Positions 19,381 to 39,278 of a stretch of DNA of 64,000 bases are shown here, piece after piece. The position numbers and the translations under genes are program-made. Numbering within the stretch: position 1 is the stretch's first letter; each line of letters opens with the position of its first letter. Source of the DNA: Shouchella miscanthi (GTDB taxonomy: Bacteria > Bacillota > Bacilli > Bacillales > Bacillaceae_D); assembly GCF_007725405.1 (NCBI RefSeq), contig NZ_CP042163.1, positions 3,596,001 through 3,660,000 on the forward strand. Reading direction: 5' to 3'. The notes beneath the pieces were generated by a model. That model saw only the letters and a list, made by a program, of their open reading frames with translations. It made no database searches and was not told the origin of the DNA.

Positions 19381-19776
19381 GTGTTGACGCTTCCACATTG
19401 GCTTTATCTCTTTGGCATGTTACTCATTATCGGCACCATGCTCGTTCGAAAAAATGTCGTTGTCCCTGCCATTATTATGACGTTTCTACTAGGGGTCGCC
19501 TATACAGGTGCTATCACCACCGGTGTCCAAACGGTTTTCTCAGCTAGCCTTATTGCGGCAGGTGAGCTATTCAGTATTTTTCTCATCATTGCCGTCATGT
19601 CTGCTCTTTTACAAGGACTTGAAGCCATCGGTGCGAACAAACAAATGATCCAACCGATTGGAAAGATCATGATTAACGGTCATATCTCGTATCTTATTAT
19701 TATACTCGTTACGTATATCATTTCACTATTCTTTTGGCCAACGCCAGCTGTTCCTAAAGTAGCAGAAGGGACATAA
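19381..19776 (+). pseudogene. 5' part of a multi-pass transporter gene, interrupted by the prophage
   Basis: The reading frame (GTG start, GAAAGGA 12 bases upstream) encodes 131 residues with four hydrophobic segments. It reaches FFWPTPAVP and then ten phage-derived codons and a stop. The host part ends in the att core at 19744-19754. The 3' part resumes in frame at 45991, and joining them gives a 464-codon protein with about eleven to twelve membrane segments. The family looks like a Bacillus ion or organic-acid transporter, but I cannot name its substrate. It is reversibly inactivated while the prophage is resident. Confidence 0.85.
19738..19772. other. attL
   Basis: Core CCAGCTGTTCC lies at 19744-19754. 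The left arm CCAAC (19738-19742) is the host attB half. The right arm AGTAG (19758-19762) plus GAAGGGAC (19765-19772) is the phage attP half. Confidence 0.85.
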
Positions 19777-19947
19777 ATGGTAACAAAGTGATAGACCTAG
19801 ACAGCTTTTTAGATTATAAAGGAATGTAAAATATATGACCCTTTATTTTGAACTTTGTATTAGCATCAGCATAAAGAAATAAAAAAACCTATTAAAAAAT
19901 AATCTAGTTTTTTAAATTTTAAGCTTAGAATTATCTAACAAAATAAA

Positions 19948-20160
19948 ATGGCAACTGAAGAAAGGATGATTTACATTAAAAACGATCCGCTTTACCTAAC
20001 CATTGGTAATACAAAAATTAAGATAATTCCTCCAACAGATCCAGAAGTTATAAAGAGAGCTCATGAAGACTTCCATCGAGTTAGCTGGGAAGTTTGGAGA
20101 AGCTTCACACCTGAAGAACAAATCAAAATCAATGCCAAATATGGAGAAAAGAAAACATAG
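19948..20160 (+). CDS. Small hypothetical prophage protein
   Basis: This frame encodes up to 70 residues (IYIKNDPLYLTIGNTKIKI... FHRVSWEVWRSFTPEEQIKIN). The ATG at 19948 lacks an RBS and the ATG at 19966 abuts GAAAGG, so the start is uncertain. The sequence is protein-like, with hydrophobic alternation and a conserved-looking Trp-rich end. It is the first gene inside attL, ahead of the RipA-like gene. No function is recognised. Confidence 0.5.
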   Translation: MATEERMIYIKNDPLYLTIGNTKIKIIPPTDPEVIKRAHEDFHRVSWEVWRSFTPEEQIKINAKYGEKKT

Positions 20161-20364
20161 AACCTTAATTGGTTCTTTTTCTAGTTGTATACGAATGTTT
20201 ATCAAGTAAACAGCTCAAAAAAGATATTAAGACTAATTTGCTCTTTTACATGGGTAGACTGACTGCACGAATGTCCTTTTGATGACAATACTTAGCCAAT
20301 AATATTACTGAAAATTTTATCGATTTATGCAATAATATAGATATATTATTGTGGTGGTGTTTAA

Positions 20365-21489
20365 TTGAAAAAACCAGAGGTATTTTGGGAAGAGAAAAGT
20401 ATTTTATTAAAGGATGATTATCTAAACAGTGTTCCTTCTGTGGAAAAAGCTTTAGAATACGCATTAGACATTAGGAAAATTGAAATTGAGTTGTATTGGA
20501 AAAGAGCGACTTATTTTTGGGCATTTTTGGCGGTAGCAATTGGTGGCTACTCAGCTATTACCATAGCTAACGGTCCTCTGAACCACCTTTACTTATTTAT
20601 AGTGAGCTGTGTAGGATTAACATTTGCTTTAAGTTGGTGGAAAGTGAATGAAGGAAGTAAGATTTGGCAGGACAATTGGGAAAAGCAAGTAGATCTTTTG
20701 GAAAATGAAGTAATTGGACCTCTTTATAAAACTCTTATAATTAAAAAAGACACTAAAAAGTTTTATTCAGTTTCAAAAATTAATCTAAATCTAAGCAAAT
20801 ATATCTTTTTAATATGGCTTTTAATTGCCGGTTTTCACGGTTATTTTTTTCTAAAGGATAAATTAAGTGGTATGCAATTAATTTGGTTAATAATACCTAT
20901 AATAATTATCTTTATGTATTTTTTAAAAGATATATTTTACTTTGCAAAAACCTTTAATGAAAAAATTAAAGTATTTTGTAAAGTCCTTAAAGAAATAGGT
21001 TTAAAATTTAAGAATAAGGAAAAACCTAAGCGCTATTATTTAAAACAGTTTTTAAAAATGATTTTAAAAATGTTAAATACAGAAAGATTTTTAGTTACTG
21101 CATTATCTCTTTTTGGAATTATATTCTTTATCTACTACATTCGGTCAGGCGTACAATCAAACGATTATTCGGTTTTAGGTTTCTATATTTTTGGTCTAAT
21201 TAGCCTTTACTACTGTTTTAAGATTTTATTTTTATCAGTCAATAGCTCTTATAGGTTTATTGAAGAAAAAGAAAATGAAAGCAGGAAGAATGAGGAAAAG
21301 ACTGTAGACTGGAATCAAAGTACATCAGAAGACTATGTGATTTACGAAAGAAAAATAGCCCCTAATCAACAAGAACTTACAAGCTCAAACGCCAAAAATT
21401 TTGTTAAGAACCAAGCAACCGAGGAAGATATAGTTGAATTTGAAAAGCTACTTGATGATCGCAGACAACATCTATCTGAACAAAAATAA
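20365..21489 (+). CDS. RipA-like membrane protein (accessory prophage gene)
   Basis: The 374-residue protein starts at TTG 20365 after a GGTGG-type RBS. An N-terminal module (EYALDIRKIEIELYWKRATYFW..., then SWWKVNEGSKIWQDNWEKQVDLLE) with two membrane helices resembles proteins annotated as RipA-family octameric membrane proteins. Two more pairs of hydrophobic helices follow (about 145-195 and 235-290), with a charged C-terminal tail. It is AT-rich compared with host genes and sits in the cargo position next to attL. A defence or superinfection-exclusion role is possible but unproven. Confidence 0.6.
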   Translation: MKKPEVFWEEKSILLKDDYLNSVPSVEKALEYALDIRKIEIELYWKRATYFWAFLAVAIGGYSAITIANGPLNHLYLFIVSCVGLTFALSWWKVNEGSKIWQDNWEKQVDLLENEVIGPLYKTLIIKKDTKKFYSVSKINLNLSKYIFLIWLLIAGFHGYFFLKDKLSGMQLIWLIIPIIIIFMYFLKDIFYFAKTFNEKIKVFCKVLKEIGLKFKNKEKPKRYYLKQFLKMILKMLNTERFLVTALSLFGIIFFIYYIRSGVQSNDYSVLGFYIFGLISLYYCFKILFLSVNSSYRFIEEKENESRKNEEKTVDWNQSTSEDYVIYERKIAPNQQELTSSNAKNFVKNQATEEDIVEFEKLLDDRRQHLSEQK

Positions 21490-21619
21490 AGTCTTCAATG
21501 AAGACGGCGTTTTGTGAAGCAATCTATAGGGTACTTAATGACTAATTACATATGATGTTCCCCTGCCACCCCAAGCAGGATCATGTAATTGTCCCTTGGC
21601 TTAATAAAGCCCCCTAAGA

Positions 21620-21642
21620 CCTCGCTGAGAAGCGGGGTTTTT
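21620..21642 (+). terminator. Terminator after the RipA-like gene
   Basis: CCTCGCT-GAGA-AGCGGGG (7-bp stem with a G-T pair) is followed by T5. Confidence 0.75.
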
Positions 21643-21646
21643 AATA

Positions 21647-21694
21647 TTACACTAAAATTGCCCTTATTAAGAAATAAGAGCAATTTTAGTGTAA
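21647..21694. terminator. Long perfect hairpin between convergent cargo genes
   Basis: TTACACTAAAATTGC (21647-21661) and GCAATTTTAGTGTAA (21680-21694) form a 15-bp stem, with inner TTATT/AATAA pairing. It separates the RipA-like gene from the convergent three-gene operon and probably terminates the latter, though no clear T-run follows. Confidence 0.6.
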
Positions 21695-21705
21695 TAAACC
21701 TTAAT

Positions 21706-22422
21706 TTATTTTTGAGTATTAGTACATATCTCATATAAATCTTCTCTATTGAGTATTTTGACACACTCATATCCATTTTCATTAAGAGCTCTTGTCTCAT
21801 CTGCGACATTCAAATTTGAACAAACCAAATAAACTGAATTTTTATATCCCTCTGTTTTTAAAGTATTGTGAACTTCCCTCATATATTTTAATTTTCGTCT
21901 AGCTTTTCGTTTGAAATACCCTCTTCTATGGTTAAGAAATGTTGAAACATCTACTTTGCACTCCATTAACTCAAACTTCGAACCTAAATCAAACACAGAA
22001 TCGAAATTGTGTTCAGTTTCACCAATATAATTACTATCGTTATCAAAATACAATTTTGATTCTCTGTACTTACTTTTAAAGACATATAAACTTAAAGAGT
22101 AGACTATTTCTTCAAGAATGTCCCCTCTAGCATCGTGAAGTTCATTCTCAGATAGATAATATAATTGATCAAGATAATTTTTGAATAGATCTTTTTTGTT
22201 GGTAGGTATATCTATCATTTCATCTGAAATTATTATCAATGATTCTAATTCTTCAATACGCTGTACAGTGTCATCAGGGTTTTTGTATGGACTTTTATAT
22301 CTGTTAAGAATATCTAATAATAATAACAGAAATTCATTATGTTGCTTTATTAGAGTAATCATTTGATTTATCTTATGATCTAGTGGGCATGCTTGCATTT
22401 CCTCAAATACTAACTTTCGCAT
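21706..22422 (-). CDS. Putative PD-(D/E)XK-type nuclease (third gene of SecB-like operon)
   Basis: The 238-residue protein is mostly helical at first. A candidate nuclease core follows: Glu104/Glu105 in GDILEEIVYSL, Asp141/Asp145 in FDSVFDLG, and Glu154-Cys-Lys156 in FELMECKVDVS. The D-x(n)-E-x-K arrangement after a hydrophobic strand is the PD-(D/E)XK signature. A basic segment (RRGYFKRKARRKLK, about 166-179) could contact nucleic acid. The end VYLVCSNLNVADETRALNENG resembles the final strand-helix of restriction-type folds. It is the last of three co-directional genes and may be the toxic effector. Assignment rests on motif reading only. Confidence 0.5.
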   Translation of the reverse strand: MRKLVFEEMQACPLDHKINQMITLIKQHNEFLLLLLDILNRYKSPYKNPDDTVQRIEELESLIIISDEMIDIPTNKKDLFKNYLDQLYYLSENELHDARGDILEEIVYSLSLYVFKSKYRESKLYFDNDSNYIGETEHNFDSVFDLGSKFELMECKVDVSTFLNHRRGYFKRKARRKLKYMREVHNTLKTEGYKNSVYLVCSNLNVADETRALNENGYECVKILNREDLYEICTNTQK

Positions 22423-22436
22423 TCGATCAGCTCGTT

Positions 22437-22877
22437 TTAATTATTTTCTTCAAATATAGGATCATCTTTATGTAATGGCACATATAGAGCTGGATATCCC
22501 ATTCTAACTGTAGTAGAACTTATCAATTCTCTAGCGTATGGCCAAATATTTATTGGTGCGTTGATTTTTGCAAAATGGCTTAAATATTGGTCTTCAAAAT
22601 CCTCTTCAATGGGAATATTATAGGTTGCTTTGTAATTAAATTTAATGAGGAAAATATCATTATTATTTTTTTCATCTTCGGCTTTAACTTCAAAAAATAA
22701 ATTTACAATTAACATGTCTTCCTCACTAATTAAATCTTCAACTCGTGCATGAAAATCAACTGTAAGCCTATCATGATCGTCTACAACATACCTCTTCATT
22801 TCTAAATTAAGCAATTCAATATCACGAAACTGAACTACATTAATCAAATTGTCGTAAACACTTTTGTCTAGAGTCAT
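22437..22877 (-). CDS. SecB-like chaperone protein (second gene of operon)
   Basis: The 146-residue acidic protein ends with NIWPYARELISSTTVRMGYP followed by ALYVPLHKDDPIFEE. That resembles the conserved SecB end (fPYARE.iss...r.gfP.l.l.pi.f..l). The alternating strands before it (FHARVEDL, LIVNLFFEVKAED, FLIKFNYKATY) fit the SecB beta-sheet. Firmicutes lack canonical SecB; solitary SecB-like proteins are known as chaperones of toxin-antitoxin-chaperone modules such as mycobacterial Rv1957. AGAAGGGG precedes ATG 22877. The genes before and after it lie 12-14 bp away, so an operon is likely. Confidence 0.6.
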   Translation of the reverse strand: MTLDKSVYDNLINVVQFRDIELLNLEMKRYVVDDHDRLTVDFHARVEDLISEEDMLIVNLFFEVKAEDEKNNNDIFLIKFNYKATYNIPIEEDFEDQYLSHFAKINAPINIWPYARELISSTTVRMGYPALYVPLHKDDPIFEENN

Positions 22878-22889
22878 TTAAATCCCCTT

Positions 22890-23438
22890 CTATGCAGTTT
22901 TTACTTTAAATACCTCATCATTATTTGAAACATCACTTGCATAATCAAGATCAAAACTAATATTAATTTTACGAAAAGCCTTTCGTTCACGGTAATCTTG
23001 ATTTTCAATATCCTTCTTAATTCGCATACTAACTTCTTTAGACCAATTAATTAAACGTTCTAATCTGTCATCGTTTAGTTCAATTTGCACGTGCTTTAAA
23101 TCAGTAATCTTCAAATATGCTTCAAGCTTAGTAACGATCCTGCCATAAATTGCCGATGTGAAACTTCTATTTTTTATCAATGACTCAGTCTCTTTCAAAT
23201 CGGCCAACCCATCACTATAAAAATAATCGAGTGCATTTTCTAACAAATTAATTCTTGAATAATGGCTATAAGTTGCATACTCCGATGCTTTTTCTAAACT
23301 GTCTTCAACTGATTCTTTTATAGTTAAGAGATATTGAATTAAGACATCTTTTTCATTAAATGCATTATCTACTGGCTTCTTTTCAACTTTAACAGTTGAA
23401 TAAGCACGATAATCAACAGCACTAAAGACATCTTTCAT
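22890..23438 (-). CDS. Unknown protein, first gene of the SecB-like/nuclease operon
   Basis: The 182-residue protein (MKDVFSAVDYRAYSTVKV) starts at ATG 23438, eight bases after GGGAGG; an upstream in-frame ATG at 23468, after AAAGGGGG, is also possible. It is charged and predicted helical, with a strand-like tail (KINISFDLDY). There is no helix-turn-helix, membrane segment or catalytic motif that I recognise. By position it may be the antitoxin, sensor or SecB client of the cassette. Confidence 0.6.
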   Translation of the reverse strand: MKDVFSAVDYRAYSTVKVEKKPVDNAFNEKDVLIQYLLTIKESVEDSLEKASEYATYSHYSRINLLENALDYFYSDGLADLKETESLIKNRSFTSAIYGRIVTKLEAYLKITDLKHVQIELNDDRLERLINWSKEVSMRIKKDIENQDYRERKAFRKINISFDLDYASDVSNNDEVFKVKTA

Positions 23439-23733
23439 ATAAATACCCTCCCTTTTATCCATCTTCATCCCCCTTTATAATAGCAGTCAAACTTATTTCC
23501 ATACAAGATATAACTTCTGATATGTATGAAAAATTTTTGACTTATATTCAAATGTTGGATTAAAGCAATTGATTTATACAAAATTTCTATAAAAAATATC
23601 GCTCTCCCACATTTAAAGAGAGAAAGGCATAAAAAAATTATAAGAATCACTTGATTTACACAATTTTATCCCCGCCGTAGGTGCTGCACCCCAAATGTTA
23701 GAGTAAAAATCTAGCACTTGGGGTGTTTTTTCT

Positions 23734-24285
23734 ATGTCAAAATATAGTGACGAATTTAAACTGAAAATCATTAAAGAATATGTAGATGGATACCTGGGGT
23801 ATCAATTACTCGCTAAAAAATATAACATCCCTGATACAAAAATCATTCGAAGGTGGGTACGCGCATTTCAAGCGTTTGGCGTAGATGGGATTAAAAGAAA
23901 ACGTAAAAAGGCAACTTACTCTGTTTCATTTAAACTCGATGTATTACACTATATGGAACGGACTGGCGCCTCGTTCCAAGATACAGCGATTGAATTTGGG
24001 TTAACTAACCCACCTTTAATTTCTAATTGGAAAAAGAAGTATAGAGAAAAAGGCGTGGAAGGTCTGAATCAGCCGAAAGGACGACCTCCCATGACGAAAA
24101 AGAAAAAACAACTAGTAAAGAAAGAAGAATCACGCGAAAAACAATTAGAAACGGAGATCGAAGAGCTTCGTTTGGAGGTTGCTTATTTAAAAAAGTTGAA
24201 CGCTTTTCGGGAGAACCCGGACACCTTCCTCGAAAAGCACAAGCAGCGCTGGCATTCGAACTCAAAGAAGAAGGATTCCCATTAA
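23734..24285 (+). CDS. IS150-type OrfA (DNA-binding protein)
   Basis: The 183-residue protein has two helix-turn-helix modules (about residues 5-45 and 62-105) and a Lys-rich coiled-coil/leucine-zipper region (about 118-155). It binds the inverted ends and joins OrfB after frameshifting. The heptamer A-AAA-AAG at 24189-24195 lies in zero frame, and GCTTTTCG (24202-24209) can pair with CGAAAAGC (24231-24238) as a stimulatory hairpin. Confidence 0.9.
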   Translation: MSKYSDEFKLKIIKEYVDGYLGYQLLAKKYNIPDTKIIRRWVRAFQAFGVDGIKRKRKKATYSVSFKLDVLHYMERTGASFQDTAIEFGLTNPPLISNWKKKYREKGVEGLNQPKGRPPMTKKKKQLVKKEESREKQLETEIEELRLEVAYLKKLNAFRENPDTFLEKHKQRWHSNSKKKDSH

Positions 24286-24293
24286 AAAGCGTA

Positions 24294-25112
24294 TTGGCCA
24301 AGGTCGGTATACCATCAGCAACTTATCACTATCATATGAACCAATTCAAGAAATCCGACCCAGATCAAAAGTGGAAAGCACTGATTCGTGAACTTTTTCA
24401 AGAGCATAAAGGAAGGTATGGCTATCGTCGCATTCATTCAGAATTAAGAAAGAGAGGATACGTCATCAATCATAAAAAAGTTCAGAGGCTTATGAAAGCA
24501 TTAGGGTTGATGTGTGCAAAGTTTACACGTAAGTCACGGTATCGCTCCTATAAAGGGACGGTCGGGAAGGTAGCCAAAAACCGCTTAAATCGCCGATTTA
24601 AGACAAGTATTCGTCTCCAAAAAGTAGTGACGGACGTCACTGAGTTTAAATGTACCGAAGGTCAAAAACTGTATTTCAGTCCGATTATGGACTTGTATAA
24701 TGGGGAAATCCTTTCGTTTGGGCTAACGAAAAAACCAACGCTCGATTTAGTTTTAAAACCACTTGACCAGGTCATTACGATTATGAAAAAAGATGCTCGA
24801 TACCGAACAACCATCCACTCGGATCAAGGGTGGCATTATCAACATCAACGATGGGTAAGCACGTTGAAAGAAAACAAGATTTATCAAAGTATGTCTCGTA
24901 AAGCGACGTGTGCAGACAATGCGGCTATGGAGAACTTTTTCGGCATCATGAAACAGGAAATGTACTATGGTGAAGTTCTTGTGGACTTTGAGATCTTAAA
25001 ACAACGAATCAAAGCGTATGTCGAATATTACAATACAAAGCGAATAAAACAAAAATTGGCTGGACTAAGCCCGGTACAATACCGAACTCAGTTTAGCCAA
25101 TTAACTGCATAA
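24294..25112 (+). CDS. IS150-type OrfB, DDE transposase domain
   Basis: The 272-residue frame has an HTH_21-type segment (KGRYGYRRIHSELRKRGY) followed by an rve integrase core. The catalytic residues appear in VVTDVTEF (first Asp), IHSDQGWHY (second Asp) and CADNAAMENFF (Glu). The frame is open back to the slippery site near 24190, so the active product is an OrfAB fusion made by -1 frameshifting. A separate ATG start is not needed. Confidence 0.92.
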   Translation: MAKVGIPSATYHYHMNQFKKSDPDQKWKALIRELFQEHKGRYGYRRIHSELRKRGYVINHKKVQRLMKALGLMCAKFTRKSRYRSYKGTVGKVAKNRLNRRFKTSIRLQKVVTDVTEFKCTEGQKLYFSPIMDLYNGEILSFGLTKKPTLDLVLKPLDQVITIMKKDARYRTTIHSDQGWHYQHQRWVSTLKENKIYQSMSRKATCADNAAMENFFGIMKQEMYYGEVLVDFEILKQRIKAYVEYYNTKRIKQKLAGLSPVQYRTQFSQLTA

Positions 25113-25158
25113 ATGAAACTCTAACTATTGGGGGTCACTACCCGTAGCGGGGCTTTTT

Positions 25159-26304
25159 TTATTTTGAAAGAATGTTTAACAGTTGGTTGTTTTGTCCCGC
25201 TGTACCTCGATAATTTTTAATCCCATGCTGTGCCGCCAAATGAGCTCGATTGTTATAAGAGCTATCCATCTTTGCACGGTTCATCCAACTGACAATCCCC
25301 TCTCCCGCTCTTACAGCAGGCTTAGAAGGTGCTTTGGTAGAACTACCATTAATAATGGCTTGTACCGCATCATAACGACTACCCAAGGACTTTCTACGGG
25401 TATCACCATTGCCATGTAATCCAGCAAGAACTTCGTTAGCTAGTTGCTGATCTGTTTTGCGTGTTGGTGCCGGCGCTACTACACCGTCAAACGCTACATA
25501 CTTGCTATTAGCGGTAATATACAAGCCGGAAATTAATTGATACATCTTAGATCCATTGACCGTTAATTCACGGGATACGGTAAACGCCTCACCCTTTTTA
25601 ACAGTAAATGCTCTTGCCGACCAGTCCGGCTTGTCATAAACCCATAGATCCTCTGCAAGTACACGCAATAAAGATTTTCCAACATCGTCAGATTTAGGCT
25701 CCGACGGCTTACTAGGGGTTGGTGCGCTTCCACCGGTCGAAGGAACAGCGACACCGTAGTGAGCACAAATCCCACGTAGTAGTGCGTTAGAATAGGCCAC
25801 GTCAAATGCAGGCGTAAGCATCCACGTTCTGGCTGTTGGATTCGTGAAAAAGTCTGCTTCAGTAAGAATTGAAAGCATATGCTGATAAGATGCACGAAGC
25901 ACACCGAAATTAGCCCGTTTAACGCCACGGTTCGGTTGTTTAAATTCAGCCACCATTGCAGTTTGAACGGTTTGAGCAATAGACAAAGAAGCTTGGCTGT
26001 TAGTATGAATGAACGTTTCTGTTCCTCTTACGGAAGGATCTGCATGTGCATTGGTGTGAATAGATAAGAATAAATCTGCATTAGCATTTACTGCGTTTTG
26101 ACCTCGTTGCGATAAACTTAAATCGACAGCACTGTCTAGATTACATGAATACATGGTCCGGAAACCCGCTGCCTTTAATTTAGCTGCTAATAACCTAGCT
26201 ACTCGTCGATTACTTGCATATTCATAAAAGACAGGGTTACTTCCCGCCCTTTTACCTGGCGTGTTCTTCGCGTGCCCTGGATCAATACAAATTAATTTAC
26301 TCAT
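25159..26304 (-). CDS. Phage endolysin: N-acetylmuramoyl-L-alanine amidase
   Basis: The 381-residue protein has an N-terminal Amidase_3 zinc domain (ICIDPGHAKNTPG with the first His; FLSIHTNAHADP; ILTEADFFTN with catalytic Glu) to about residue 180. An SH3-like segment (about 215-275), a Cpl-7-like wall-binding motif (about 285-320) and a ~45-residue C-terminal motif (MDSSYNNRAHLAAQHGIKNY) follow. It cleaves the amide between muramic acid and the stem peptide at lysis. It follows two holin genes. GGGGAT precedes ATG 26304. Confidence 0.93.
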   Translation of the reverse strand: MSKLICIDPGHAKNTPGKRAGSNPVFYEYASNRRVARLLAAKLKAAGFRTMYSCNLDSAVDLSLSQRGQNAVNANADLFLSIHTNAHADPSVRGTETFIHTNSQASLSIAQTVQTAMVAEFKQPNRGVKRANFGVLRASYQHMLSILTEADFFTNPTARTWMLTPAFDVAYSNALLRGICAHYGVAVPSTGGSAPTPSKPSEPKSDDVGKSLLRVLAEDLWVYDKPDWSARAFTVKKGEAFTVSRELTVNGSKMYQLISGLYITANSKYVAFDGVVAPAPTRKTDQQLANEVLAGLHGNGDTRRKSLGSRYDAVQAIINGSSTKAPSKPAVRAGEGIVSWMNRAKMDSSYNNRAHLAAQHGIKNYRGTAGQNNQLLNILSK

Positions 26305-26306
26305 TA

Positions 26307-26588
26307 TTACTTATCCCCTTTCGTAGTACCTTCTCGTTTTTTGAATGCCAACTCAAATAGACCTGTCGCAGACAAACCAGCAAAACCACCAGCCCATAGA
26401 CGTAGAATTAAATCAAACTCAGTAAACGGAAACGCTGCTGCACCGATTAATAACCCAATCACTAGGGCAATTAAGGGAATGAGGTTCACAGGCACTTTCG
26501 CTGTTTTTTTAACCAACTCAACCAACGCTAGGATAATAGGTGCCAACGCAGTCGCAAAAATAACCACTTCTTGCATATCGTTCATCAT
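26307..26588 (-). CDS. Holin (A118 Hol118-like)
   Basis: The 93-residue protein starts at ATG 26588, after AAAAGGAG; a GTG six bases earlier overlaps the RBS. Three hydrophobic segments, the motif TAKVPVNLIPLIALVIGLLIG and the ending GLSATGLFEL resemble Hol118-type holins. A short charged tail follows. It would form membrane lesions that release the endolysin. The endolysin gene starts 2 bp after it. Confidence 0.8.
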   Translation of the reverse strand: MMNDMQEVVIFATALAPIILALVELVKKTAKVPVNLIPLIALVIGLLIGAAAFPFTEFDLILRLWAGGFAGLSATGLFELAFKKREGTTKGDK

Positions 26589-26636
26589 GTTCACTCCTTT
26601 TCATAATAAAAGCCCTACCGATTCTCACGGAAAGGC

Positions 26637-27047
26637 TTATTTAAGTCTTTCTGTATCTTTATCTGCATCTGCTCTCATAACCAACAGGCGATCCTTTAGA
26701 AATTTAGGAAACGGCACACCAATTTGATTAAGATTTTCAATAATAGACAAACCTTCGTTGGCCAAGTAAAAATAAATCGTTGCTGTAGCCAGGACACCGT
26801 TTAAATTCAAGATGAGGTCAATGATAATCGCTAAGATAATGACCATAAATACGCCCATTTTTCTCGCGTATCCGTACCACCCTTTGCGAGACCAGATCGT
26901 ATTCATTCGGAATGCTTTAACAACGCCGGTGACTATATCGATCAACATTAAAATACATAAAAAATAGAGGTTCGCTTCATTTCCGAGCAAAAACGTTTTT
27001 GCCGGCTCAAGCGCCTCTAGGTTAAGAAATACTGAAATTTGATCCAT
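26637..27047 (-). CDS. Phage holin, toxin-secretion/lysis family (holin_4)
   Basis: The 136-residue protein has three membrane segments and the family pattern LMLIDIVTGVVKAF followed by SRKGWYGYARKMGVFMVIILA. This is the Bacillus phage phi29-type/toxin-secretion holin family. Two holin-like genes precede the amidase; one may act as antiholin. The sequence between it and the next gene (26589-26636) has no feature beyond the RBS. Confidence 0.88.
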   Translation of the reverse strand: MDQISVFLNLEALEPAKTFLLGNEANLYFLCILMLIDIVTGVVKAFRMNTIWSRKGWYGYARKMGVFMVIILAIIIDLILNLNGVLATATIYFYLANEGLSIIENLNQIGVPFPKFLKDRLLVMRADADKDTERLK

Positions 27048-27053
27048 AAACGA

Positions 27054-27293
27054 TTAGTCCTGTTCTGGTGGACTTTCCCCTTCCCCCGGATCATTCAATT
27101 CTGATTCATCTTCTCCCGGATCTTCCTCTGTTGGCGGTCCCTCTTCAATCGGCGGCTCTTCCGGCTCTTGTTCAGGGGGATTCAGTTCATCCTCACGACC
27201 TAACATACTTGCTACTTGTTGACGACAATGTGCCGGCACCTCTAACAGATCCATTCGACCAAGATCGACCATTGTAAAATAGAAATTATTCAT
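27054..27293 (-). CDS. Small CD1375-like tail protein with acidic tail
   Basis: The 79-residue protein starts at ATG 27293 after GGAGGGG. NNFYFTMVDLGRMDLLEVPAHCRQQV resembles the ~50-residue CD1375/XkdX-like proteins found after fibre genes. A Pro/Glu/Asp-rich tail (about 40-79) is unusual for the family and probably disordered. It overlaps the preceding gene by 8 bp. Confidence 0.6.
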   Translation of the reverse strand: MNNFYFTMVDLGRMDLLEVPAHCRQQVASMLGREDELNPPEQEPEEPPIEEGPPTEEDPGEDESELNDPGEGESPPEQD

Positions 27294-27612
27294 TTGCTTC
27301 CCCTCCAATTTGTTCTTTTAACTGGTTAAGCTCTTTTTCAAGATTGCTCAATTTTGTTTCTAATGTTCTGATTTTCCGCTGATCCTGACTTGAATTTGAT
27401 AAGAGGAATGCCAGCGCATTGCCTAGCTCGTTGCTATCGACTAAGACCGTGGCAAGTGCTTGTCCTAGACCTTCCAAGTCATTTAATGACGTTCCCGCAG
27501 CAGTTCCCACATTTTCAAGATCAATTAAAAAAGGAAAGGTTTCCCCTTCCTTTGGCTTGGTATCTATACCTTGAAAATTTAGCAGTTCAATAAAAGCTTT
27601 TAATTGCTCCAC
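27286..27612 (-). CDS. Small tail-fibre-associated protein with coiled coil
   Basis: The 108-residue protein starts at GTG 27612, eight bases after GGGAGG; the GTG at 27621 overlaps the RBS. The C-terminal third (KIRTLETKLSNLEKELNQLK) is a coiled coil, suggesting an oligomeric accessory of the fibre. It overlaps its neighbours on both sides in the late operon. No domain family is recognised. Confidence 0.6.
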   Translation of the reverse strand: MEQLKAFIELLNFQGIDTKPKEGETFPFLIDLENVGTAAGTSLNDLEGLGQALATVLVDSNELGNALAFLLSNSSQDQRKIRTLETKLSNLEKELNQLKEQIGGEANE

Positions 27613-27613
27613 C

Positions 27614-29785
27614 TTATTCACCTCCCAATATTCGAAGTGACTTAACTACTTCACCCATTAAAAGATTAATTGCTGATATATCAGAGGTGTTGTCTGTAGT
27701 TTGTTTAACAGTAGCGTCATGAGCTGATTTTAGGCTTGTTTGATATGTGACGGATGCTTTATCTACGTTGGTTGTAAACTTGTGCTTGTCTTGAACAAGG
27801 TATGTGACAGTGTACTCAGCTTCAGGATCATACTTATCAATGGGCAAGTTCGCATAGCCATATCCTAGTAATTCAATATTAGCTGTTGTTGGTCTTATCA
27901 TATAAGACCACTCTCTGTCTAAATATCCATCTTTATAGACCGCTAACATTCTAGCTGCTCGATATTTAGTCTTACTCTCCCCATGTGCAATAGTATTAAT
28001 CTGTATTAATTCACCGTTCTGAGAAACTTGCGGATTAGCTTTCTCTCGGACGATCACACCAGAATCAACTTCAAGTAAATTCTTTCCGCTATGCATATCG
28101 ATGGAACCTTCGAAAGTGAGAGTATGCTCTAAGGATTTTGCAAGTTCGTATTGTAATTCAAATTCGTTATCTTTTAAATATTCCCTTACTTGATTGTTGC
28201 TTGGGAGACTTGTCCAACCAGTTTCAGTATTAGGTATTCGGATCCAAAACCCTGCACCACCTAGTACAAAAGATTTTTTAATATCTGCTGCTTCACCAGT
28301 ATTCGACTTTTGCGGATATAAATAATTATTACTATCTATCAAAAAATGTTTACCGTTCTGAGAAAAGGGTTTGTTATCTCTTATTTCATCAGTATAGATC
28401 TCTACAAAACCTTCACTTCCCTCAAATCTATTTGCCTTAAAATTAAGTGTAGAACCATCTAATCTTAGACGTTTTAACCATTTCTGATGAACATAATCAT
28501 TGTCTTTTTTATAAATAAGGTCACGAACTGTACCATCTAAACTTGATCCAAGTTTTGCTTGAGTGTATAAAAAGCCTTCATTTTGAGGTTCAAAGACCGA
28601 ATGTTCACCAATTGTTAGTATCGGATTTTCAAAAACAAATTCTCCAGTTTCTTGACTTCCTACATCTTGAAAAACAATCAGTCGATAGGTATCCGGCCGC
28701 GTAACGAAAGTTTCTGTGCTATGAGATCCTGCATACATTAAATCTGTTAGAGCCAAATTATTATTAGCGGAATTTGAAAAAACGCGACCTCTCGCTCTTT
28801 CACTACCTGAATAACTAAAAGTATAAGTAGTATTAGGTAATGCAGGAATAATTACGCTTGTTGCATTGTTGGAAGGTGTAGAAGATAGTGTTTTAATTTT
28901 ATATGGACCGTCTACTTTTGTACTTTCATGAAGTTCCCATTTATAAAAAGGTGGCAACAAGTTCTTCCCCTTTTTCGTGATAACAGGATTTTTAACGTGC
29001 TGTACACCGTCGATGTAAGGGTATTGAATTCCCAATTGTTTATTTGTCATTGATAACCCTTTAATATATTCATCATCAGTTATACTATAAATTGCAAAAC
29101 CATCAACTTCCATTTCAGCACCTGAGTGTCTCGGTTCAATCGATATATGGTAATTTTTGTAGTCTTCATCAGGAACATTTACTAACAAAACTATTGGTTC
29201 GTATTCATTGCTTTGATTCCAAATTGATTTAGTGGCAAACGAATCAGTTCTAAAGTAACCAACTCCACCAAAACTCAATGTTCGACTGGAGCTTCCGCGA
29301 GCATCTATCCTTATTGCAAGTTTTGAACCTACAGGAAATCTTCTTAAAAAATCATTCTTTGAATACATTTTTGTGATTGAAAATATTGGTGTATCAGCTC
29401 TCAACCATTGAGAGTATTTACCGTACTTTCCGTTCTCTCTTACTTGGGCAACTCCAGCTGAAGCAATACCCTCCCTTCTAGTAAAAGTTTCTGATGTCTG
29501 CTGTCCATCAGTTGAAGGTTTTATTTTCCCGTCGCCTAACAAGTTAACCATCGTCCTCCCCTCAATCAATACATCTGCAACGCTCGATTGATCAGCTTCA
29601 ACAATATTTTGACCATGTGTCAGTTTTGCCGTTTGTTGATCCTGAGAAGAAAGAACAGCCCTTATTTCTTCATCACGTTTCATTAGTTCATTTTGACGTT
29701 GATTAAACTCGTCCGCATGACCTGGTGTTGCTCCACTTTCATCGTTAGGTCCTTTAAACGGCGTCACCGGTGATAATTCTTTCAT
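27614..29785 (-). CDS. Tail fibre / receptor-binding-type protein
   Basis: The 723-residue protein begins with a helical N-terminus (NQRQNELMKRDEEIRAVLS), like baseplate-upper or fibre proteins. A long beta-rich, aromatic and Asn/Gly-rich body and a short helical end follow. Two carbohydrate-binding-like jelly-roll segments (about 90-235 and 275-405) are plausible from the strand pattern. It probably contacts the host surface. It is AT-richer than the baseplate genes, as expected of host-range modules. AAGGAGG precedes the ATG. Confidence 0.7.
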   Translation of the reverse strand: MKELSPVTPFKGPNDESGATPGHADEFNQRQNELMKRDEEIRAVLSSQDQQTAKLTHGQNIVEADQSSVADVLIEGRTMVNLLGDGKIKPSTDGQQTSETFTRREGIASAGVAQVRENGKYGKYSQWLRADTPIFSITKMYSKNDFLRRFPVGSKLAIRIDARGSSSRTLSFGGVGYFRTDSFATKSIWNQSNEYEPIVLLVNVPDEDYKNYHISIEPRHSGAEMEVDGFAIYSITDDEYIKGLSMTNKQLGIQYPYIDGVQHVKNPVITKKGKNLLPPFYKWELHESTKVDGPYKIKTLSSTPSNNATSVIIPALPNTTYTFSYSGSERARGRVFSNSANNNLALTDLMYAGSHSTETFVTRPDTYRLIVFQDVGSQETGEFVFENPILTIGEHSVFEPQNEGFLYTQAKLGSSLDGTVRDLIYKKDNDYVHQKWLKRLRLDGSTLNFKANRFEGSEGFVEIYTDEIRDNKPFSQNGKHFLIDSNNYLYPQKSNTGEAADIKKSFVLGGAGFWIRIPNTETGWTSLPSNNQVREYLKDNEFELQYELAKSLEHTLTFEGSIDMHSGKNLLEVDSGVIVREKANPQVSQNGELIQINTIAHGESKTKYRAARMLAVYKDGYLDREWSYMIRPTTANIELLGYGYANLPIDKYDPEAEYTVTYLVQDKHKFTTNVDKASVTYQTSLKSAHDATVKQTTDNTSDISAINLLMGEVVKSLRILGGE

Positions 29786-29805
29786 GTGGCTTCCTCCTTC
29801 CTTTT

Positions 29806-30186
29806 TTAATACATGTCATCGATTTCAAAAAGAAACTGCATGTCGCCGTCCTTCTTTTTATCAAACATGGTGCGAATCGCCGTTAGCTTCCCTGTCTCGT
29901 CCATCAATGCCATTTCGTTAATCGTTCGGCCCGCTAATTCGCTTTCGGATAGAGTAATTGCATAGCGAGTCGTTGCCGGCGCGATAAAAGTGGCACTTTC
30001 AATCGTTTTACGCGTCAATTGGTTCTTTAAAGATTGTTCCCGACCGGTTGGTTCAATTGGATTGCCTGCTGCATCCGTACCACCATCACCAAGCACAATA
30101 TGTGTGTTCTTTGTAATACGAGAGCCATTTGCCCGCGCCCTAGCCATTTGTTCACGTGCATACACCGTTGTTTTTGTTGTACTCAT
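29806..30186 (-). CDS. Phage tail-collar fibre protein (DUF3751-type)
   Basis: The 126-residue protein matches the N-terminal tail-collar fibre domain: an early ARANG segment, GDGG near residue 33, SLKNQLTRKTIES and ELAGRTINEMALMDETGKL. In larger fibres this domain attaches the fibre to the baseplate. Here it is a separate short protein ahead of the long fibre gene. AAAGGAG lies upstream of the ATG. Confidence 0.75.
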   Translation of the reverse strand: MSTTKTTVYAREQMARARANGSRITKNTHIVLGDGGTDAAGNPIEPTGREQSLKNQLTRKTIESATFIAPATTRYAITLSESELAGRTINEMALMDETGKLTAIRTMFDKKKDGDMQFLFEIDDMY

Positions 30187-30198
30187 TTTTACACTCCT

Positions 30199-31677
30199 TT
30201 AGATTGCGACCTGTTCTTTTGTCGCACTTAATTTGCGGGATCCGTCTAAGGGTACAGAGCCATCCAATACCCACCAGTCTTTTTTAATCGTAAGCGTCCC
30301 TTTACTAATAGTGGGCGTTCGTACGACCGATCGCATCGCAACACCCTGTTTGTGTAGTTGGACATTCTTTTTGTTAAATCCATTAAGAAACCAACTTCCG
30401 TCTAATTGTTGTACACCATCTAAATAAATGGGCAGCACATCAAAAAAGCCTACTCGACTTTGAAAGCGGACTTTATCTTCTTCTTTTTTCTCATTAAATG
30501 AACTATGTTTAGAGGTAAGTACAATCTTTTGATTCTCTTGTTTTTTGCTTCTAAATGGCACTTTCACACTTAAATGATGTCCAAATAATTGTTGGCCAAC
30601 TTCCTTTTCAACAGCACCAGATAAGTTCCAGTAACCGTCTAAATTAAAACGGCCATTCAAAACAACCGGTCGATAACCAAAGAAACCAACCGCCGATCTA
30701 AAGACAGATTTCTCGGCAGAACCTTTTTGCTCGAATCCTTCAGCATGAGATCGCATGGTTAATCGCTTAGCAAAATCATTTTCGTTTATGTGCTTAGCGG
30801 TCAACGCTAATCGATGACCGAATAGCTGTCGCTTGAAACGATTATCATACCCGTCAAGACTAAAAGAACCATCTAAGCTGTAGACACCATCTAAATAGAC
30901 TGGCAACATACCAAAAAAACCTATACGAGAGCGCAAGGTTTGCATGTGCTTATAATCGTTAATTATTTGTTGATTTATCGATGTACGCAATTTTGCACGC
31001 ATCTTCTGGTCTATCGATTCCTCAACCTTAAATTTAAGCTGCAGCATGAATTGATAATACTCATGGATTTGTTTTTCGGAGTACCCGTCCAAGTTCCAAG
31101 ACCCATCGAGTGGGTAGTTACCATCAAGAAACACTTGCTCTATATCATCCCAATAAGGCTGCGCCATACGTAAAAGGAGCCTTTGAGCATAATGATTGGT
31201 GCTATCAATCGACTCTTTAAACTCGCCAGTGAATGTGTACGCAAAGTGCGCGGGCTTCATTCGTTCCAGCTGTTGGATGATTTGGCGCTCGTACTGTAGA
31301 TCATAAGCATTTACCCTAGCAGAAAAATGAGAGCGACCAGGTGTGGTTCTTACGATCGCCGATGGACTTTTTAAATACCGATTTATAGTACGCTCAAGCG
31401 TCCTGTAAGTGATGGAAGGAAAGTTGCTCATTTGCGTAATAATTCGCGCACGGCGAACGTTTATATCATCCGTTATATCACGATCGATGTTTAACAATCT
31501 TTCCCACCGCTCTAATGCCCAAGTTGCTGTGGGGATGAAATGTTGATCGGTTTGGTCAAAAATAATGTTATTGATTTGCTCTAACTCCGGTGCCTCCGCC
31601 CCAATAATCTCCTGCATTTCTCTTAGATCAGAGATAAAACGCGGTAAATAAGCTTTCATTTCCTCCTGTTTACTCAT
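30199..31677 (-). CDS. YmfQ/Mu gp48-like baseplate protein with LDG repeats
   Basis: The first ~180 of 492 residues match the DUF2313 baseplate family (ATWALERWERLLNI, RARIITQMSNFPSITYRTLE). The remaining ~310 residues are an extension absent from typical ~190-residue members. It holds five copies of a motif around LDGxxxLDGSWxLDG (for example VFLDGNYPLDGSWNLDGYS), separated by ~60-residue beta-rich units with GFFGMLPVYLDG-like starts. The extension may display a beta-helical or adhesive segment. The gene overlaps the upstream gpJ gene by 8 bp. Confidence 0.78.
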   Translation of the reverse strand: MSKQEEMKAYLPRFISDLREMQEIIGAEAPELEQINNIIFDQTDQHFIPTATWALERWERLLNIDRDITDDINVRRARIITQMSNFPSITYRTLERTINRYLKSPSAIVRTTPGRSHFSARVNAYDLQYERQIIQQLERMKPAHFAYTFTGEFKESIDSTNHYAQRLLLRMAQPYWDDIEQVFLDGNYPLDGSWNLDGYSEKQIHEYYQFMLQLKFKVEESIDQKMRAKLRTSINQQIINDYKHMQTLRSRIGFFGMLPVYLDGVYSLDGSFSLDGYDNRFKRQLFGHRLALTAKHINENDFAKRLTMRSHAEGFEQKGSAEKSVFRSAVGFFGYRPVVLNGRFNLDGYWNLSGAVEKEVGQQLFGHHLSVKVPFRSKKQENQKIVLTSKHSSFNEKKEEDKVRFQSRVGFFDVLPIYLDGVQQLDGSWFLNGFNKKNVQLHKQGVAMRSVVRTPTISKGTLTIKKDWWVLDGSVPLDGSRKLSATKEQVAI

Positions 31678-32752
31678 ATAACCTCACCTGACCAATACGA
31701 GGGATTTCTATTTCATCCAACTGCAAATTGCTTTCCTCACCATCGATTGTGACCTCTGAGTAGTCGAAAATACTCGTCGATCGCTGTAAGATTTGATGAA
31801 TGGCACTTATACGGATGGAGGCGTCTTCAAAAGCCAGGGTGCGAAATAATTCTCTTATGCCTTGCTGAAGTTCGTTTGTAGCTTCTTCTATGCTTCTTCC
31901 GCTTTCCAGCGAAACTCGAGCGCTAATGTCAATATCTCGCCAATCAGCACTTACAACGGTTACTCTGGCACCAATTGGCGCCTCTCCTTCCCCTTGACCC
32001 TCAATAGGATCAATAAACCGCTGAACGGCATCGATTAAGGCTTGTGTAGCAGGTTCAATATTCGAATCCGTAATGACAATCTTTACCGTACCTTCTCCTA
32101 ATGCGAGCGGGAATATTTTTGATTTCCCAACTCCCTCTACGTCTTCCGCCCATGCTTTGTAATGTGCTTTATTGGCACTTACAGCCTCACGCCGTACACG
32201 CACCTGATAGCGTTCGAAAAGCTTTTGGTCGTCTTCCTCCTCGGCACCAGGTACGAGTAGATTTGTTAATTGAGCAACAGATAAACCGGGAATCGTTTCA
32301 AGTGGTTGTAAATCAATTTCCTTCATTGACGTTGCGTTTCCGATCTCGCCGGCTGTTTCCGCCTGCAATTGATTATTGCCTAACGAGGTAAAATAAAGGT
32401 TATGCGTTTCCAAAAAGAATCGAAATCCTGCCGGCACGTTGATATTAAATGCAGTTTGCCATACTGCTCTTGTTGCCGGTTGGCGCTCAATGCCTGACTC
32501 AGCCACTCGTTTATCTAAAAATTCACCCATTGCTGTATCCGCAAAGACCAAATCAAAACTGCTCTCTAGCCATACATAAGCTTGTGCTAACTCCGCAGCT
32601 GCAGGAGCAAGAGCATTATAAATAACGCTACCCTGCCTCTTATCAATGTTAGGTGGTACACGATCCAACATCCGTTCCATAATGGTCTCAAAATGTTGAC
32701 CTTGCAACATCGATATTACATCGTTATAGCTTTTATTGGCCAAGCTCTCCAT
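31670..32752 (-). CDS. Baseplate J-like protein (XkdT/gpJ)
   Basis: The 360-residue protein has the baseplate J features: [25 protein letters not shown] near residue 39, [14 protein letters not shown], and [13 protein letters not shown] in the central domain. It forms the wedge of contractile-tail baseplates. It is complete and overlaps the DUF2634-like gene by 20 bp. Translational coupling within the late operon is likely. Confidence 0.9.
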
Positions 32753-33074
32753 CGTTACCGATCACCTCCTGTACATCAAAAATCCCCTCTACGCATTCGA
32801 CCGTAAAAGAGATAAAAAACGAATCCCCCCGTTTTTGAACAAACATGTTTGTAACTGCATCGATGCGCTCGTCATAAACAAGAGCTTCTTCGATCACTCG
32901 TGGGATTTCCATTTCTTTAAACGCATCGCTTGCAGACTCATCGATTAAAATGTCTCTTAACTCACTGCCTATATCATGATCGTAAACAGGGTAAGCATAA
33001 CGTTCTGTTCGTAATGATAAAATGACGAATTGTTTAATTGCATCTAAGCCATCATATAACCGGAATATAAACAT
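32733..33074 (-). CDS. DUF2634/XkdS-like baseplate protein, apparently N-terminally short
   Basis: The 113-residue protein carries the family core ([32 protein letters not shown], then [15 protein letters not shown]). The usual first ~25-40 residues ahead of DGL are missing. The ATG at 33074 lies 17 bp after the ssb stop and uses the GAGGTG there. This is where terminase, capsid and tail genes should intervene, so the gene probably lost its 5' end in a large deletion. Whether it is functional is unknown. Confidence 0.75.
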
Positions 33075-33093
33075 ATTTATTACTCACCTCTTA

Positions 33094-33549
33094 TCAAAAC
33101 GGCAGATCATCATCTGAAATATCAATGTTGCCCTCGCTATCGTGAAAACTCTGATCGTACCCATAGCTTTGATTGCTTCCCCTATTAAACGGATCATCAC
33201 TTGATTGTCCGTCGTGTTTTGCTTGGCTAGACTTAGGCTCTAAAAACTGTACCGATTCCGCAACGATTTCAGTTACAAAAACTCTTCTGCCCTCGTTGTT
33301 GTCATATGAACGGGTCTGCACTCGACCGTCTACACCGGCAAGGCTCCCTTTTTTCAAGAAATTCGCTACGTTTTCAGCTGGCTTTCTCCATACCACACAA
33401 TTAATAAAATCAGCTTCCCTTTCCCCTTGTTGATTAGAGAAGGGACGATTGACTGCTAACGTAAAATTCGCTACTGCAACGCCATTTGGCGTAAATTTTA
33501 ATTCAGGGTCGCGAGTTAAGCGACCGACTAATACAATACGATTTAGCAT
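33094..33549 (-). CDS. ssb: Single-stranded DNA-binding protein
   Basis: The 151-residue protein has an OB fold ([39 protein letters not shown], residues 1-105), a Gly/Ser/Gln-rich linker and the acidic tip DDDLPF. The tip recruits partner proteins. In the phage it protects replication intermediates and supports Bet/RecT annealing. It is the last gene of the early operon. Confidence 0.95.
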
Positions 33550-33551
33550 TA

Positions 33552-34520
33552 CTATCTCCTTTGTTCTTTATGTTGATCCAAAGCCTCGGCAATCAATTCT
33601 TGATCCAGCAATGCGTCTCTTAGGATTGCTTTGGTCTTGGCCCTATTAACTGTAAGTTCAATATCTGCATAACTTAGACCTAGAAATTGCTCCGATTGTG
33701 AAGTTAACAAAGGATTATCCTTTAACAATTTCGATAAATACATCGCAACTTCTTCAACCGATGGATAATCAAAATCAAGTCGATTATGAAACCTGCGCCA
33801 CACCGCAGCATCAATCTTGTTACCTAAATTTGTTGCGGCAAATAATAATACTTCATCATTTAAAGCATCTATATTTTGTAACAAAGAATTGACGACACGC
33901 CTCATTTCTTCATCAGCCCCACTTCCACCATGGGAATTCCTATCAGCTGCTATAGCGTCAAATTCATCAAGAAACAATATACACGGTTGTTTATTAGCAA
34001 CATCAAAAACTTTTCGTAGATTTTGCGCTGTCCCCCCAAGTGATGAGTCAACTATTGAATCTAGTCTCACTAACAACAATGGTAAATTTAGTAGTTGCGC
34101 TATAAAATGGGCTGTTAATGTTTTTCCTGTTCCAGGTGGACCAAACATTAAGGTATTACTCGGCAATGGTATTTCTGCTTCCCAAAATTGTTCTTTTCTC
34201 AAAAATACGGCCACTATTTCATCAACTTGTAATTTTAAGCACTTGGAAAGTGTATAGTTAATTGTTTTTTGCTTTGAATCCTCCGGTACATAAAAATCAT
34301 ATTCATTACTTTCTTGAAGCCTCATAGCCGATTTACTGGATTTCATACGAGAATATCTTGCTAGTTTCTCTTTTATTCTGCTTGCCTTAGACTGATCGCC
34401 AACCTTTAAATATTTATCAGCAATCTTTTGTACGTCTACTGCAAATTGTTCGTAGTTATCACGACTAGCACTGTCTATCATTCTTAACAATTCAGGAACT
34501 GGGTTAACTACTGCTTTCAT
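33552..34520 (-). CDS. AAA+ ATPase with MIT-like N-terminus
   Basis: The 322-residue protein has an N-terminal three-helix region (about 15-60) resembling MIT domains. A classical AAA module follows: GPPGTGKT (127-134), Walker B ILFLDEFD (181-188), sensor-1 FAATN and arginine-finger-like WRRFHNR. It resembles ATPases paired with subtilisin-like proteases in accessory loci, but no protease gene is here. In this position a DnaC/DnaI-type helicase loader would be expected; it may have taken that role or be cargo. It overlaps the preceding small gene. Confidence 0.75.
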
Positions 34521-34725
34521 TCAACTCACCCTTTAAATCAGATCGGATCATCCGATCAAATTTTTTCATCCAGGCTAATGCTTCTATAGGGCTTGAAACA
34601 ATGTCATCCTTACCATCAAACTTCACAGTGCATTGGTTGGAACATGGTAAATGAATAATTGTGCCCTCTTGACCATTAGCCATTGTGACAAGTTGGCTAC
34701 CATTCAGTAGCGTTTCTACGTTCAT
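34504..34725 (-). CDS. Small early prophage protein
   Basis: The 73-residue protein (MNVETLLNGSQLVTMANGQEGTI...) is beta-rich with two Cys (PCSNQCTV). It is preceded by GGAAGATCGG. Both ends overlap neighbours by a few bases, consistent with the early operon. No function is recognised. Confidence 0.65.
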   Translation of the reverse strand: MNVETLLNGSQLVTMANGQEGTIIHLPCSNQCTVKFDGKDDIVSSPIEALAWMKKFDRMIRSDLKGELNESSS

Positions 34726-34946
34726 CCGATCTTCCTCCGCTTTTCTAAGTCGTCCAATTCGTCCATGAAATTCTCATCTTTGTTTGAGTTAGCTAGTTTA
34801 GTCAGTGACTTTATTAGATCAATAGGCGTAATAGCTTTTTTGTAACACACTGGACCATAACCCCTACGCATGCTTTCCTTGGCTGTTAATTGTCCTTTGC
34901 AACGCTTGCAATGGGTGTGCATCACCTCTGCTTCAATAGCTGCCAT
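34722..34946 (-). CDS. Small zinc-finger protein (DUF6011-like)
   Basis: The 74-residue protein starts at ATG 34946 with AAAGGGG upstream. HCKRCKGQLTAKESMRRGYG followed by PVC is a Cys-pair zinc-binding motif found in small phage and actinobacterial proteins. The rest is acidic and helical. It overlaps the initiator gene by 14 bp. Confidence 0.65.
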   Translation of the reverse strand: MAAIEAEVMHTHCKRCKGQLTAKESMRRGYGPVCYKKAITPIDLIKSLTKLANSNKDENFMDELDDLEKRRKIG

Positions 34947-36291: not shown

Positions 36292-36304
36292 CTTACGTCC
36301 TCCT

Positions 36305-36484
36305 TTAATTGTTTTCTGTCTTCAAACGGCAGATTGCCGAATCTTTATCAAACTCAATTACTTCGTACTCATGATAGTTTTTTCGGAAGTAAGCAGCTGC
36401 GAACTTATAATATAAGTCCACAGGTTGCTCGCTCCCTTGTACAAAGCTCCTAAAGACATGAGGTATTGGCAATCTAATTTCCAT
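36305..36484 (-). CDS. Small early prophage protein
   Basis: The 59-residue protein (MEIRLPIPHVFRSFVQGSE...) starts at ATG 36484 inside the stop region of the recT-like gene, so it is probably coupled to it; a GTG three bases upstream is possible. No family is recognised. Confidence 0.6.
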   Translation of the reverse strand: MEIRLPIPHVFRSFVQGSEQPVDLYYKFAAAYFRKNYHEYEVIEFDKDSAICRLKTENN

Positions 36485-37478: not shown

Positions 37479-37558
37479 TACTTACCTCCTGTATTGCAAT
37501 ATTTGGATTAATCGCATATACTGGATTTAACAATTTCGAGTATATGCATGAAGTCGAA

Positions 37559-37768
37559 TCAGCCCGCCAGCTGGTTCGGCTTTTTTATTCTAGCTACCTC
37601 ATGAAAAAGGTGTATTACATCACGCTCATTAATCTTTAAGCGACGTGCTACCCTTTCAACACCTACTGCCATACCTAAAATTCTGATATGATTCTCCAAG
37701 TAAAATAAATAATCATCAGATATGCGCTTATACGCATCTGTGTCTGAACTCCAATAATGCAATGACAT
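37559..37768 (-). CDS. Small HTH-like early protein
   Basis: The 69-residue protein has helix-turn-helix-like spacing in GVERVARRLKINERDVIHLFHEVARI. The RBS AGGAGG lies eight bases upstream. It sits between recT-like and a 22-bp inverted repeat. A regulatory role in the early operon is possible. Confidence 0.6.
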   Translation of the reverse strand: MSLHYWSSDTDAYKRISDDYLFYLENHIRILGMAVGVERVARRLKINERDVIHLFHEVARIKKPNQLAG

Positions 37769-37804
37769 TTCAAATACCTCCTATTCTATTTTCAAAGATC
37801 GGGT

Positions 37805-37888: not shown

Positions 37889-37947
37889 CGTCATTTTGAC
37901 TATTGCCGTCGTAAATTATTTAATGTAAGATTGATTTAGAAAATGTT

Positions 37948-39205: not shown

Positions 39206-39278
39206 AGGGGATCACCTCCTTTTCATTAAGGTATGTGAGTGGGATAGTGGGACTGACCAAGCAATTTAGGATAAAAAT

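Follow-up and report, generated by a model that had tools for sequence, protein, structure and literature searches.

The closest described relatives of the locus considered here are toxin-antitoxin-chaperone (TAC) modules, and in two of these, HigBAC (Rv1955-Rv1957 of Mycobacterium tuberculosis) and MqsRAC, the toxins are RelE/HigB- and MqsR-type ribonucleases and the antitoxins are of the HTH or zinc type. For the TAC group as a whole, the available part of one report names endoribonucleases or the ADP-ribosyltransferase CmdT as the toxins described, states that the antitoxin CmdA ends in LAA, a ClpXP signal, as do other TAC antitoxins, and describes the displacement of CmdA from the chaperone CmdC by a T4 capsid protein (PMC11618068). 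The comparisons made here draw on the accessible parts of five reports (PMC11618068, PMC9519451, PMC5105189, PMC4257090, PMC12487901).

The locus lies in a 64,000-nucleotide stretch of DNA from Shouchella miscanthi (the window), where three minus-strand genes encode, in order, a protein with no known domain (gene 1), a SecB-like protein and a nuclease-like protein. With a rough probability of 0.72, this trio is a TAC module in the order antitoxin-chaperone-toxin, in which the nuclease would be a toxin restrained by gene 1, the SecB-like protein would guard gene 1, and the whole would act as anti-phage cargo of a prophage.

The cassette resembles CmdTAC (PD-T4-9, from E. coli ECOR22), as that system is set out in the available text (PMC11618068, PMC9519451), in its SecB-like chaperone, its three genes and the ClpXP-type ends of its candidate antitoxins. 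It differs in that the putative toxin is nuclease-like whereas CmdT is an ADP-ribosyltransferase, that the candidate antitoxin has an unrelated sequence and a greater length (179-244 aa, compared with 75-137 aa for the CmdA-like proteins of related loci), and that the toxin gene comes last whereas CmdTAC has the order T-A-C. The PADLOC profile for CmdT (PD-T4-9_A) matched none of the four window proteins scanned, which is weak evidence alone because this profile gave (weak) matches to just 2 of the 6 ART-like toxins from related loci that were tested. HigBAC and MqsRAC share with the cassette a SecB-like chaperone with a dedicated antitoxin, and Rv1957, the M. tuberculosis TAC chaperone, is narrowly the best match when an 8-row SecB profile is compared with solved structures (E 2.8e-4, against 3.8e-4 for SecB 1fx3), yet none of the toxin or antitoxin families of these two systems was found in gene 1 or the nuclease by searches of Pfam, PADLOC, NCBIfam and PHROGs. 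Among the matches listed, no title or abstract opening in the open-access literature described a SecB/TAC module with a nuclease toxin. An earlier note on this DNA had proposed a TAC-like logic, which the comparative evidence (SecB family, nuclease motif, recurring trio) bears out, and had called the system a new type, where a variant within the known TAC class, with a nuclease toxin, is the better description.

The cassette and its host element

The gaps within the trio are 12 bases (gene 1/SecB) and 14 bases (SecB/nuclease), and the same gene order recurs across genomes, in keeping with the earlier reading of the three closely spaced genes as one unit. For gene 1, the internal ATG at 23438 is the probable start codon, because AAGGGAGG lies directly upstream of this codon and M11 of the long form is an invariant column in an 8-row gene 1 alignment. 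The AT-richness and the separate terminator-like hairpin that had been noted for the cassette both hold: at 29.7%, its GC content is below that of the element (37.1%) and that of the window (39.0%), and the hairpin is an uninterrupted stem of 24 pairs (-30.2 kcal/mol; z -11.65) that was equalled in 0 of 200 shuffled sequences. A promoter scan was uninformative (9 sites, compared with 13.8 expected). The convergent 8xMP gene is as AT-rich as the cassette (28.9% GC) and may be a second cargo gene.

Table 1. Window coordinates of the cassette, its neighbours and the element that carries them.
Feature	Position	Strand	Basis or remark
Integrated element (prophage), 26.2 kb, cassette near one end	19755..46001	.	
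8xMP (PF24838) membrane protein gene	20365-21489	+	convergent to cassette
24-pair hairpin 3' of nuclease gene, probably a transcription terminator	21645..21696	-	folding energy
PD-(D/E)XK-type nuclease, putative toxin, 238 aa	21706..22422	-	E104, D141, E154, K156 putative active-site residues
SecB-like chaperone, 146 aa, relative of CmdTAC chaperone	22437..22877	-	PF02556, PD-T4-9_C
Gene 1, putative antitoxin, 182 aa from internal ATG	22890..23438	-	no known domain; C-terminus ...EVFKVKTA
Gene 1 ORF, long form	23468-22890	-	ORF list
Insertion sequence, two transposase ORFs (23734-24285 and 24294-25112)	23688..25135	+	~250 bases upstream of gene 1; outer limits by eye
Phage amidase (Amidase_3), then holin genes (prophage lysis end)	25159..26304	-	

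The cassette had been placed behind the amidase, and it does lie near the lysis genes, but not immediately behind them, because a transposase ORF pair (23734-25112) separates it from the amidase gene. This pair belongs to an insertion sequence that we take to be an IS3 element, whose outer limits come from a by-eye reading of an imperfect inverted repeat; a scripted inverted-repeat search at this site found none.

The site of integration is uninterrupted in one relative of the same species (G030) and one of the same genus (G032), in both of which window position 19754 joins 45988 with a 14-base overlap; together with the presence of CCAGCTGTTCC at either end, these sites indicate an element of about 26.2 kb. 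The chromosomal region that is continuous in the two relatives is split by the element into window 19381-19776 and about 46093-47022, and the insertion probably disrupts a host gene for a membrane protein. The gene content of the element includes baseplate, tail fibre, holin, amidase, RecT and serine recombinase functions, no capsid or terminase protein was seen among the part of its protein set that was scanned, and the element may be an incomplete prophage. It also carries a PD-Lambda-1 defence gene (40401-42008, plus strand; DUF4041 and T5orf172/MUG113; PADLOC E 8.1e-148). A search for the window nuclease in 41 genomes of the family detected it only in the source genome, and a search in 397 genomes of the order detected it in 2.

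Recurrence of the trio and a diverged set

Homologues of the three genes occur together in many genomes, as the proposal of a cassette had led one to expect: the gene 1-SecB-nuclease order recurs within the Bacillota in 18 complete rows (group A, with a near-copy set aside) and in 3 rows of a diverged set (group B). Across the 18 rows, pairwise distances for any one of the proteins correlate with those for the other two (0.76-0.84, uncorrected for shared ancestry). A Pfam SecB search of 398 genomes of the class gave 21 places, all of which read as three-gene units and none as a SecB gene alone; classified from their surrounding ORFs, 3 are gene 1-SecB-nuclease units (window included), 3 are group B units and 15 are ART-like units of the CmdTAC type, the ART label resting on what we take to be an HGT-type motif and on the weak PD-T4-9_A matches noted above. 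The same classification of 31 places in 398 genomes of the phylum, a sample that has the S. miscanthi genome and G123 in common with the first, gave 6 units with a group A nuclease (window included), 3 with a group B nuclease, 15 ART-like units, some of them damaged, and 7 other or unclear places, one of which was not read.

A search with the nuclease profile alone led to 20 new genomes, 11 of which have an intact trio on one strand (two being near-copies of each other); the remainder comprise 7 damaged loci, 1 at a contig edge and 1 where no SecB was found (L110). SecB or its remnants are present in 6 of the 7 damaged loci, one of these having been read by eye, and in at least three of the nuclease-found trios (G785, G1037 and contig C68 of G1152) the SecB gene had been missed by the Pfam profile. 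Named carriers of the trio include Thermoactinomyces daqus, Sporolactobacillus terrae and Hazenella coriacea. In addition, the SecB of a viral locus (L056) is 100% identical in four C. difficile plasmid records, and the one phage-like C. difficile plasmid examined contains a trio in the same order behind an amidase, annotated as hypothetical, SecB and hypothetical. This plasmid and the PD-Lambda-1 gene of the element provide context for reading the trio as an anti-phage TAC module.

The last place of the putative toxin gene in the order and the lack of a match between the gene 1 profiles of groups A and B (see below) count against that reading, as do two loci. In L112 an apparently intact nuclease ORF adjoins a broken SecB gene, an arrangement that a strictly lethal toxin would forbid unless the assembly is wrong, and in L110 (2949-4030) a nuclease relative follows a 115-aa ORF with no SecB found nearby, possibly a chaperone-free version. 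At L108 (2261-2927), a single deletion apparently took the antitoxin tail, SecB and most of the nuclease. Two sets of matches were not counted: a Lokiarchaeal protein of 695 aa (L049), matched only at query residues 135-194, and SecB relatives on Deinococcus plasmids (16 of 20 records), which had no nuclease annotated alongside in the two records examined.

Given 18 and 5 rows, hhalign united the group A and group B nucleases in one family (99%, E 6.7e-17, 218 columns), a link that few sequences had not given; the gene 1 profiles of the two groups did not match in hhalign with either few or more sequences. A midpoint-rooted tree of 38 SecB rows, in which branches are long, has a 99/98 branch that parts group A and one Escherichia phage SecB from E. 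coli SecB, the CmdC-like rows and group B, so the tree also splits the cassette's set from that of CmdTAC. The shared nuclease family, the unmatched gene 1 profiles and the split SecB tree suggest that one putative toxin family has met two chaperone/antitoxin sets. At a group B locus (L134, 1450-2664, minus strand), gene 1 and a SecB-like domain are fused in a 404-aa ORF that precedes the nuclease, which argues that gene 1 and SecB probably act together.

Properties of the three proteins

The SecB-like signature that had been read in the middle protein is genuine: the protein matches Pfam SecB (PF02556) at 38.4 bits, above the curated cut-off of 26, and the PADLOC profile for the CmdTAC chaperone (PD-T4-9_C) at E 9.6e-9. 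It shares this family and the PYARE signature with canonical proteobacterial SecB, from which it differs in its fixed gene partners and in scoring 39.9 bits at best in the NCBIfam SecB equivalog test, where the cut-off is 143. The gene is the sole SecB match in the host genome, and its product is an operon-encoded SecB-like chaperone, a feature by which TAC modules are recognized. The accompanying remark that Firmicutes lack SecB was too strong, since, of 398 genomes in the class, 20 gave a PF02556 match at E <= 0.001 and 15 gave one above the cut-off. Against a phage collection, the window SecB matched two phage records and the C. difficile SecB matched none; no relative turned up in viral contigs, whether the query was the window SecB by itself or any of three other SecB subsets.

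The last protein of the trio reached no Pfam family, and it does have the D-x(n)-ExK spacing that was attributed to it. D141, E154, C155 and K156 are identical in all 18 aligned rows (window included) and E104 is present in 16 of them, so that the E, D and (D,E)-x-K elements of the PD-(D/E)XK motif are all found. Around the D...ExK stretch, 4 of 10 relatives scanned gave weak matches to HSDR_N_2 (PF13588), and none of the relatives scanned passed the Pfam cut-off for this family. When the 18-nuclease profile was aligned by hhalign with an HSDR_N_2 profile that was self-built from loci of the order (one of its 16 rows, L153, being empty), the D and ECK residues were aligned at E 0.0011 with a probability of 20.7%, compared with 0.38-0.63 for control profiles (SecB, gene 1, ART and column-reversed HSDR_N_2). 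The group B nucleases gave a weaker match to this profile (E 0.02; controls 0.27-0.46). The low probability of the match and its weakness for group B speak against the nuclease assignment, as judged from these alignments, and identification of the gene product as a PD-(D/E)XK enzyme is supported, not proven. An hmmsearch of the nuclease profile against PDB sequences returned nothing credible, and the window nuclease had no match in the phage collection.

Gene 1 of the window had no match in Pfam, PADLOC or NCBIfam and two in PHROGs (E 0.04 and 0.11), none of these searches revealed similarity to known antitoxins, and an hmmsearch of the gene 1 profile against PDB sequences gave nothing credible. 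Group A gene 1 proteins are poorly conserved, with 13-20% identity to the window copy, and their C-termini are -AA in 10 of 18 rows and -A in 14 of 18, counts that are not independent since the rows are related to one another. At the same loci, -AA ends occur in 0 of 18 SecB proteins and 0 of 18 nucleases (-A in 1 and 4, respectively), and the background frequency is 11 in 357 ORFs, these being all ORFs of at least 120 aa in the loci then collected and not annotated genes. Left out of the count of 18 are the three group B rows, L078, which nearly duplicates L076, and seven damaged loci. Four of the damaged loci (L082, L105, L107 and L113) end in -AA and L114 ends in -VV; the tail is missing from L108, and the end of L112 is ambiguous. 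L038, whose ORF shares 83 bases with SecB and may have a misplaced end, is scored as non -AA, and L053-L060 are scored once, as L056, with ORFs read in three of the eight. At the ART-SecB loci, 8 of 14 CmdA-like antitoxins have an -AA end (14 of the 15 ART-type loci of the class, excluding L039, a near-copy of L040).

The -AA bias means that the gene 1 family bears a published feature of TAC antitoxins. Counting against an antitoxin degron are the end of the window protein itself (-KTA, a partial match), the 8 of 18 group A rows without -AA, and group B, where the ends are -LLL, -IIG and -LCA (-AA in 0 of 3). The last 40 residues of gene 1 are slightly enriched, without a significance test, in Y/S/N/D (0.31 compared with 0.25) and in F/W/Y (0.14 compared with 0.12).

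Proposed mechanism and its alternatives

By analogy with CmdTAC, the nuclease would be the toxin and gene 1 the antitoxin, the body of which would keep the nuclease inactive and the C-terminal tail of which would serve both as a chaperone-binding (ChAD-like) segment and as a protease signal. The SecB-like protein would bind this tail and thereby hide it from ClpXP. On infection by a second phage, an abundant unfolded protein of that phage, such as the capsid protein in the CmdTAC precedent, would occupy the chaperone; gene 1 would then be degraded and the freed nuclease would cut DNA (or RNA), so that the infection is aborted. As prophage cargo, the trio would in this way shield both the lysogen and its prophage from competitors. 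At about even odds, the trio represents an undescribed TAC immune class that extends across the Bacillota, in which a PD-(D/E)XK effector family has joined different SecB proteins and antitoxins on at least two occasions and a degron is exposed by phage proteins.

The nuclease could instead attack phage DNA directly as a restriction-like effector, with gene 1 as a specificity or sensor subunit, SecB as a folding helper and no antitoxin at all. PD-(D/E)XK proteins often act in restriction, there is a profile-level resemblance to the nuclease domain of type I HsdR, and gene 1 lacks similarity to known antitoxins; however, the unit has neither a methylase nor a helicase, the SecB partner and the -AA ends are TAC features, and gene 1 is fused to SecB in L134. 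This explanation is considered unlikely.

Low odds are likewise given to a TAC-like module that functions mainly in addiction, stabilizing the prophage, and not in defence. The position of the cassette at the end of a possibly incomplete element would suit such a role, as would the stable nuclease and labile antitoxin that would be left behind by loss of the element, and, according to the available part of one report (PMC4257090), phage defence was not the context in which the first TAC module was described. Against this stand the known anti-phage gene PD-Lambda-1 in the same element and, in the accessible text of another report, the defence against phage by CmdTAC and MqsRAC (PMC9519451). The two roles are compatible. 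A chance grouping of unrelated cargo genes is very improbable, since cargo zones do gather such genes in general but the order is shared by all 18 rows and the 3 diverged ones and the protein distances correlate over the 18, and the recurring three-gene unit is the reason for rejecting a secretion-helper role of SecB.

If the TAC reading is true, the SecB-degron sensor would be a general trigger that evolution has plugged into different effectors, and host proteolysis would turn a capsid-folding signal into the destruction of DNA or RNA. The gene 1-SecB fusion, the two diverged sets and the many C-terminal ends provide natural variants for a testable model, and SecB-type three-gene units are found in Gram-positive prophages as well.

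Several other SecB-like genes were noted by eye or in passing during the surveys. Two of them follow RelE-like or MqsA-like genes (L149, 575-1809; L132, 456-1806), indicating known TAC types in the Bacillota. Escherichia phage PhiR70_1 (L086, 1757-3279) has an MqsRAC-like unit that adjoins cI and is annotated only as hypothetical proteins, and in Deinococcus radiodurans MP1 (L084, 2613-4516) a SecB-like gene lies near a HicA toxin gene and McrBC. At L151 (1489-2921), a SecB-like gene follows two ORFs, the first of which appears GNAT-like, possibly representing another class of TAC toxin.
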